This document shows positions 38,266 through 39,628 of a stretch of 40,284 bases of DNA, piece by piece. The stretch is from Deltaproteobacteria bacterium (GTDB taxonomy: Bacteria > Desulfobacterota > Syntrophobacteria > Syntrophobacterales > Thermodesulforhabdaceae). How positions within the stretch are numbered: position 1 is the stretch's first letter; every line of letters begins with the position of its first letter. A program made the translations under genes and the position numbers. The stretch is from the NCBI GenBank assembly GCA_019309115.1, contig JAFDGW010000023.1, positions 1 through 40,284 of the forward strand, given 5' to 3'. The notes under the pieces were generated by a model, which searched no databases, was not told the origin of the DNA, and saw only the letters and a list, made by a program, of their open reading frames with translations.

Positions 38266-38294
38266 TTGACAAAACATTCACGACTGGATAAGCG
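38266..38294 (+). promoter_or_regulatory. possible sigma-70 promoter before the tRNA-Cys-like element
   Basis: A perfect TTGACA at 38266-38271 is followed by a weak -10 region: TAAGCG at 17 bases or GATAAG at 15 bases. A start near 38300 would put it just upstream of the tRNA-like 5' end at 38307. The -10 box is poor, so confidence is modest. Confidence 0.42.
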
Positions 38295-38306: not shown

Positions 38307-38378
38307 GGTAGCATACCCAAGGGGGAAGAGGGCAATTTGCAAAAGCGTTATTCGCCAGTTCGAATCTGGCTGCCGCTT
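38307..38378 (+). tRNA. tRNA-Cys(GCA)-like element, degenerate, possible pseudogene
   Basis: The 72 bases have the exact geometry of a bacterial tRNA-Cys. Acceptor GGTAGCA (38307-38313) faces TGCCGCT (38371-38377). The anticodon loop TTGCAAA (38337-38343) has GCA at 38339-38341, the variable loop is five bases, and the T arm GCCAG-TTCGAAT-CTGGC (38354-38370) is perfect. T8, the D-loop GG and T33 are kept. Mismatches are A-C in the acceptor, C-A in the D stem and two (A-C, A-G) in the anticodon stem. No CCA is encoded. A terminator follows 22 bases later. Either a decayed gene or an atypical tRNA. Confidence 0.6.
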
Positions 38379-38400
38379 CTATTAGAAAAGGGAATGTCGG

Positions 38401-38426
38401 GCTAACCTAGAAGGTTAGCTTTTTTT
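38401..38426 (+). terminator. rho-independent terminator
   Basis: GCTAACCT (38401-38408), a three-base loop AGA, then AGGTTAGC (38412-38419), and seven T (38420-38426). The perfect 8-bp stem makes this a strong terminator. It would end a transcript through the tRNA-Cys-like element, before trmB begins at 38450. Confidence 0.85.
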
Positions 38427-38449: not shown

Positions 38450-39391
38450 ATGAAAGCCCGGTATATCTCCCTGAAACCTCTAGTTGACTGGCGTAGAAAG
38501 CGTAGACCCTTAGATTTTTCCGATCTTTTTAGTGAATGTCGTCCTGTCGTGCTTGAAATTGGATTTGGCAACGGGGAATATCTGGGCCGCAGGGCTGCTG
38601 TGGAACGGTCGAAAAACTTCGTGGGTCTGGAAAGAGAATGGCAGTCAGTATGGCGCGCCCTGCGTTACATAGCCAGGAACGAACTCAGCAATGTTCGCAT
38701 AATAAAGGCTGACGCCAGATGGGCAATATTCAGGCTCTTCGGGGAACATACCTTTTCGGAAATATACAGCCTCTTTCCATGTCCCTGGCCAAAGGAAAGA
38801 CATAAGCGACATCGCCTTTTCAGCAAGAAATTCCTTCAGCGCCTGAACAACATTCTTGAACCTGGTGGTAGATTGTGGATAGTTACCGATGATGGAGATT
38901 ATGCAAAGTGGGTCATAGAACAATCCCAAAGTACCGGCTTTAAAGTTGATCAATCCGCGGTTCCTGCCGGTACCTATGGTACAAAATATGAGAACAAATG
39001 GGCAAAAGCAGGGCTTAAATTCTTTTGTTTACTTACCTTTTGCAAGGAGTACGAATGCCCCAACTTCGACGTTAAGGAGTACACATTGCAAACCCATAGA
39101 ATAGTTCACTTCAATCCCGACGAATTCCGTCCAATTCCGGTAAGAGGACAGATTGTGGTGGATTTTAAAGATTGTCTTTTTGATCCACAACAGCAAAGAT
39201 GTTTGGTACGTGCTGTAGTTGTCGAAGACGAATTTGTGCAGGACTTTTGGATTGAAATTCGCAAGCATGAAGCCAACTGGCACATAAGGCCGGCTAGTGG
39301 ATGTAGCTGGATTCCAACTCTTGGACTCCAGAAAGCACTTGATGCAATCAGAGACTCATGCCTCCGGAATATACCAACAAACAGGAGTTAA
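38450..39391 (+). CDS. trmB: tRNA (guanine-N7)-methyltransferase with C-terminal extension
   Basis: A 313-aa protein; the family core is ~210 residues. SAM loop LEIGFGNG (35-42), then FPCPWPKERHKRHRL (109-123) and TKYENK (178-183). TrmB makes m7G46 in tRNA variable loops. The usual motif is FPDPWPK; here Asp is replaced by C111, at a conserved position, so activity should be checked. Residues ~205-313 are an extra domain, as in some thermophile TrmB proteins. It begins 24 bases after the terminator and ends just before the PC4-like gene. Confidence 0.88.
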   Translation: MKARYISLKPLVDWRRKRRPLDFSDLFSECRPVVLEIGFGNGEYLGRRAAVERSKNFVGLEREWQSVWRALRYIARNELSNVRIIKADARWAIFRLFGEHTFSEIYSLFPCPWPKERHKRHRLFSKKFLQRLNNILEPGGRLWIVTDDGDYAKWVIEQSQSTGFKVDQSAVPAGTYGTKYENKWAKAGLKFFCLLTFCKEYECPNFDVKEYTLQTHRIVHFNPDEFRPIPVRGQIVVDFKDCLFDPQQQRCLVRAVVVEDEFVQDFWIEIRKHEANWHIRPASGCSWIPTLGLQKALDAIRDSCLRNIPTNRS

Positions 39392-39394
39392 TTG

Positions 39395-39628
39395 ATGGCA
39401 ACGGAACCAAAAGTCGTATATTCCTTCCAAAAAAACGCTCTGGAGGAGGTGCGCGCTTCAGTAACCACTTTTAAAGGGAAAAATTATTTAGATATTCGAG
39501 TGTACTATAAGGCTGACGATGGAGAATTCAAGCCATCTCGAAAGGGAATAACCCTAGCCACTTCACTGATAGATGACCTTGAGGAAGCGGTAAAAAAACT
39601 CAGGGAGGCGCTGGACGAGGCTGGGTGA
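39395..39628 (+). CDS. PC4/p15-like single-stranded DNA-binding protein
   Basis: A 77-aa protein of the transcriptional coactivator p15 (PC4) type: YSFQKNALEEVRASVTTFKG at the N-terminus, DIRVYYKADDGEFKPSRKGITL in the middle and a C-terminal helix. Bacterial members bind single-stranded DNA/RNA. Start is the ATG at 39395 with AGGAG about 10 bases upstream; the TTG at 39392 is also in frame. It starts 3 bases after trmB, probably in one operon. Confidence 0.85.
   Translation: MATEPKVVYSFQKNALEEVRASVTTFKGKNYLDIRVYYKADDGEFKPSRKGITLATSLIDDLEEAVKKLREALDEAG

Follow-up and report, generated by a model that had tools for sequence, protein, structure and literature searches.

Pseudogenes of bacterial tRNAs are a known class that has been counted genome-wide (PMC9858662), and the calling of pseudogenes by score is routine (PMC8450103). 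That bacteria gain and lose tRNA genes via duplication, transfer and deletion has also been established (PMC7661048). The element described here resembles the bacterial tRNA pseudogenes (PMC9858662), as far as they are outlined in that study, in being tRNA-derived, in having broken helices and in sharing its genome with a functional isoacceptor. Unlike in the cases outlined there, its intact orthologues can be identified as well as an intact copy within its own genome, and the promoter form and the terminator have been kept. In the account of tRNA gene-set evolution (PMC7661048), a second copy accompanies the loss of the first, as is the case here. However, that account, in its main outline, deals with large tandem duplications in the laboratory and with loss by deletion, whereas here a dispersed copy is found by the end of a repeat in a natural genome, and the first copy was lost by decay. 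In the literature searched, no paper on this locus was found.

The element is located in the window, which is the whole stretch of DNA that was analysed (40,284 nucleotides). With a probability of about 0.93, it represents the ancestral tRNA-Cys(GCA) gene of the lineage, now a pseudogene, which an intact copy on contig C66 had made redundant and which decayed without pairing constraint. The following features were assigned:

38266 to 38271, plus strand: TTGACA, the putative -35 element of the promoter that once served the tRNA-Cys, within 16 nt (CTCTTGACAAAACATT) that are identical in the syntenic locus of the relative G002
38289 to 38294, plus strand: TAAGCG at the -10 position, spaced 17 nt from the -35 element; TAAGCA in five intact loci (L055-L059)
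38307 to 38381, plus strand: probable tRNA-Cys pseudogene, 75 nt with CTA at its 3' end, where intact copies have CCA; differs from the family sequence by 14 substitutions
38399 to 38426, plus strand: hairpin and T run resembling an intrinsic terminator, in alignment with the G002 terminator
38450 to 39391, plus strand: trmB, intact, coding for a tRNA (guanine-N7)-methyltransferase family protein of 313 aa (Pfam PF02390, 123 bits)

The tRNA-like element spans 38307-38378, or extends to 38381 if the CTA end is counted. In a covariance-model scan, the Rfam tRNA model RF00005 matched it over the full model length with 24.9 bits, which is below the cut-off of 29 (E = 0.0075 in the search across the whole genome), and ARAGORN made no tRNA call in the window. 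When compared at the DNA level with the intact tRNA-Cys of the same genome, the element gave E = 1.4e-15 and 83% identity, with 61 of 75 positions being the same. The low E-values against both the model and the intact gene imply that the resemblance to a tRNA is not due to chance. The original prediction of a tRNA-Cys-like sequence with a GCA anticodon and a perfect T arm was borne out: the anticodon GCA, U73 and the T arm are retained, the latter with a stem of 5 bp and the loop TTCGAAT. The mismatches predicted in three of the stems were likewise found. In the acceptor stem, pair 4-69 is broken and pairs 1-72 and 3-70 have turned into G-U wobbles; pair 11-24 is broken in the D stem, and the adjacent pairs 29-41 and 30-40 are both broken in the anticodon stem. 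With 4 of the 20 pairs broken, the element lacks the intact acceptor, D and anticodon stems of a functional tRNA-Cys, and the encoded 3' CCA has become CTA.

Two further matches to the tRNA model fell below the cut-off in this genome, a 3' fragment of a tRNA-Arg on contig C26 and part of the tmRNA on contig C13. The former, the 3' half of a tRNA-Arg(TCT) at C26:4802-4855 on the minus strand (L154, G000:C26:4300-5400), can be aligned with the intact gene over 49 nt, six of which are mismatched. An open reading frame near it on the opposite strand resembles, by eye, the first part of a tyrosine-type integrase, and the fragment seems to be what remains of the attachment site of an integrated element.

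Among the 14 substitutions that distinguish the element from the family tRNA-Cys sequence, 10 are C:G to T:A. As a null model of decay, the same substitutions were placed at random in 200,000 simulations. The element retains 16 of 20 stem pairs compared to a simulated mean of 16.1, and 69% of the simulations retain at least as many; stem positions take 9 of the 14 substitutions, with 8.9 expected from the simulation. The T-stem pair 52-62, altered from G-C to A-U, is the only pair changed on both sides. This compensatory change was rejected as evidence of constraint, since at least one double-changed, still-pairing pair was seen in 61% of the simulated decays. The predicted cloverleaf energy is -3.2 kcal/mol for the element versus -30.7 kcal/mol for the intact gene, and the optimal fold of the element is a different one. 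In cloverleaf stability, 61% of the simulated decays equal or exceed the element, and its predicted RNA fold is no stabler than that of shuffles (z -0.21). The 20 intact tRNA-Cys loci show 0-5 differences from the family sequence and 20/20 pairs each. They comprise the C66 copy and those from 19 of the 32 other genomes of the order with a tRNA-Cys match; the DNA search took in 39 genomes, of which 6 gave no match and were left aside. The damage to the element matches random mutation, without regard to pairing. A specialised RNA or an atypical Cys tRNA, which the original prediction had kept in view, gained no support, with pair retention at the random expectation and the lone double-changed pair expected by chance. 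The idea of a specialised or otherwise constrained RNA was rejected, as random decay under the same substitution spectrum gives equal values for pair retention, for hits in stems and for cloverleaf energy.

Upstream of the element, a strict scan for the sigma-70 consensus identified no promoter. In all 20 intact loci, TTGACA is present 39-48 nt upstream of the tRNA, followed by TA after 17 nt in 19 of them. TTGACA occurs 29 times on both strands of the window, with TA at the same spacing in 2 cases. The arrangement TTGACA, 17 nt and TA at the element has the predicted promoter form which is conserved in the order. Downstream, the terminator scan found one candidate, with 0.8 expected from shuffles, so that support for the hairpin comes from its match with the G002 terminator and not from the scan. 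The flanking TTGACA (38266-38271) and the terminator (from 38399) of the original prediction both stand, the promoter being backed by the 19 of 20 loci and the hairpin by G002. By our own arithmetic, if the promoter decayed as fast as the tRNA body, a hexamer left unchanged would be unsurprising, and its retention is no proof of selection. Given the intact promoter form and the terminator, transcription of the pseudo-tRNA unit is plausible from the sequence.

In the four other genomes of the family examined (L150-L153), the tRNA-Cys gene was found directly upstream of trmB, and their trmB products are 53-62% identical to the TrmB of the window. In the two other families of the order, the 15 tRNA-Cys loci tested had no trmB in their flanks, which were covered up to 1.5 kb. 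Two parts of the window flanks match those of G002, the 16-nt stretch that contains the -35 element and the terminator, and each match beats all 500 shuffles. The synteny in four relatives and the flank match to G002 together identify the window copy as the old locus and the C66 copy as the newcomer. A gene for a PC4-type small protein (PF02229) follows trmB at 39395-39628 of the window, and G002 likewise has one downstream of trmB. The gene upstream of the element, coding for a ROK-family kinase, is divergent.

TrmB methylates G at position 46 of tRNAs. In tRNA-Cys, this position is T in the window copy (38307-38381) and in 20 of the 20 intact loci examined (including L017:298-372), so that the neighbouring TrmB would not be expected to modify tRNA-Cys. 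An action of TrmB on tRNA-Cys was rejected on these grounds, and the suggestion that the adjacent gene for a tRNA modifier is meaningful proved to be a weak hint.

The assembly of 2.51 Mb in 72 contigs is 96.4% complete and has 44 tRNA loci above the cut-off. Among these, a single tRNA-Cys was named by ARAGORN, at C66:55632-55706 on the minus strand, which is the one normal copy available for comparison with the element. It is identical over 75 nt to the G002 and G003 copies, has its own TTGACA promoter and lies upstream of a gene named by eye as glnA. The flanks of the C66 copy share with those of the window only the 11-nt TCTTGACAAAA (P 0.038 upstream, 0.99 downstream), and have no significant match to the G002 flanks (P 0.07 and 0.36). 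The glnA of G003 is 80% identical to the one on C66, and the open reading frame upstream of it codes for 721 aa, glutamate-synthase-like by eye. No glnA was found within the flanks (up to 1.5 kb) of 17 tRNA-Cys loci tested, and in four family members the tRNA-Cys match sits apart from the glnA match; the glnA-adjacent site was rejected as the ancestral one on both counts.

The contig ends 278 nt from this tRNA-Cys, inside a 113-nt repeat which ends 165 nt upstream of the gene (L149:11873-11985, the end of G000:C66). The repeat was identified at 20 further places in the genome, at 16 of them nearly full length. Many contigs start or stop at it. One copy (L167:2389-2504) overlaps the 3' end of an open reading frame of 469 aa, which reads like that of a TnpB protein. 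The repeat end by the C66 tRNA-Cys suggests, without proving it, an IS-associated rearrangement. A foreign origin of contig C66 was rejected, short of proof, because the end repeat recurs at 20 other places in the genome and each of the four family members has a counterpart of the C66 glnA. The C66 copy may have arisen by duplication within the lineage or have come by transfer from a near relative, since the tRNA would be identical in both cases.

The start of trmB lies 23 nt past the T run, and a scan found no promoter-like site between them. If promoter and terminator persist by selection, they may do so because the unit is the trmB leader. That the kept promoter, the decayed tRNA body and the terminator form a non-coding leader setting trmB expression is improbable; if true, a tRNA gene would have become the 5' leader of the mRNA for a tRNA-modifying enzyme. 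It is quite improbable that the decayed tRNA was exapted as part of a regulated trmB 5' leader, for example by an alternative fold competing with the terminator. Promoter, terminator and tight trmB linkage are retained, and in the predicted optimal fold of the truncated leader the 5' end of the pseudo-tRNA pairs with the 5' arm of the terminator. However, this pairing has -7.7 kcal/mol compared to a mean of -8.4 kcal/mol in simulated decays, 64% of which are at least as stable, and an antiterminator formed in this way was rejected as no better than chance. Relatives with an intact tRNA have the same terminator and trmB linkage, so that no new device is needed.

An atypical tRNA-Cys that is still functional has a negligible probability. 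The retained anticodon, U73, T arm and promoter form would fit such a tRNA, but two adjacent anticodon-stem pairs are broken in addition to D and acceptor pairs, the score is under the Rfam cut-off, there is no sign of pairing constraint, and a normal tRNA-Cys exists in the genome. That an integrative element left the sequence behind as a tRNA fragment at its attachment site is scarcely credible either. A probable remnant of this type is present in the same genome (the tRNA-Arg(TCT) 3' half at C26:4802-4855), but the window element is full length with promoter form and terminator kept, and intact genes occupy the syntenic position in four relatives.

A decaying pseudogene with its promoter and terminator kept, the simple reading of the original prediction, is thereby upheld by the synteny, the intact tRNA-Cys elsewhere and the pairing-blind mutations. 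At the level of sequence, orthology by synteny, an intact copy elsewhere, damage in a neutral pattern and a kept promoter form and terminator were demonstrated. The history of the locus would probably have started from the family arrangement of promoter, tRNA-Cys, terminator and then trmB. An intact copy, equipped with a TTGACA promoter of its own, would have come to lie upstream of glnA on C66, beside the end of a multi-copy repeat with a TnpB-like gene, and an IS may have helped its arrival. Its duplication, relocation or transfer would have preceded the decay, making the original tRNA-Cys redundant. The original copy would then have gathered substitutions, mostly C:G to T:A, ignoring pairing.

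Beyond annotation, the finding is otherwise of little consequence. It provides a clean case of tRNA-gene replacement midway, with intact orthologues in relatives and with the decayed original and the intact copy in one genome, and it illustrates that the retention of a promoter and a terminator on either side of a damaged tRNA is not in itself a sign of a new RNA.
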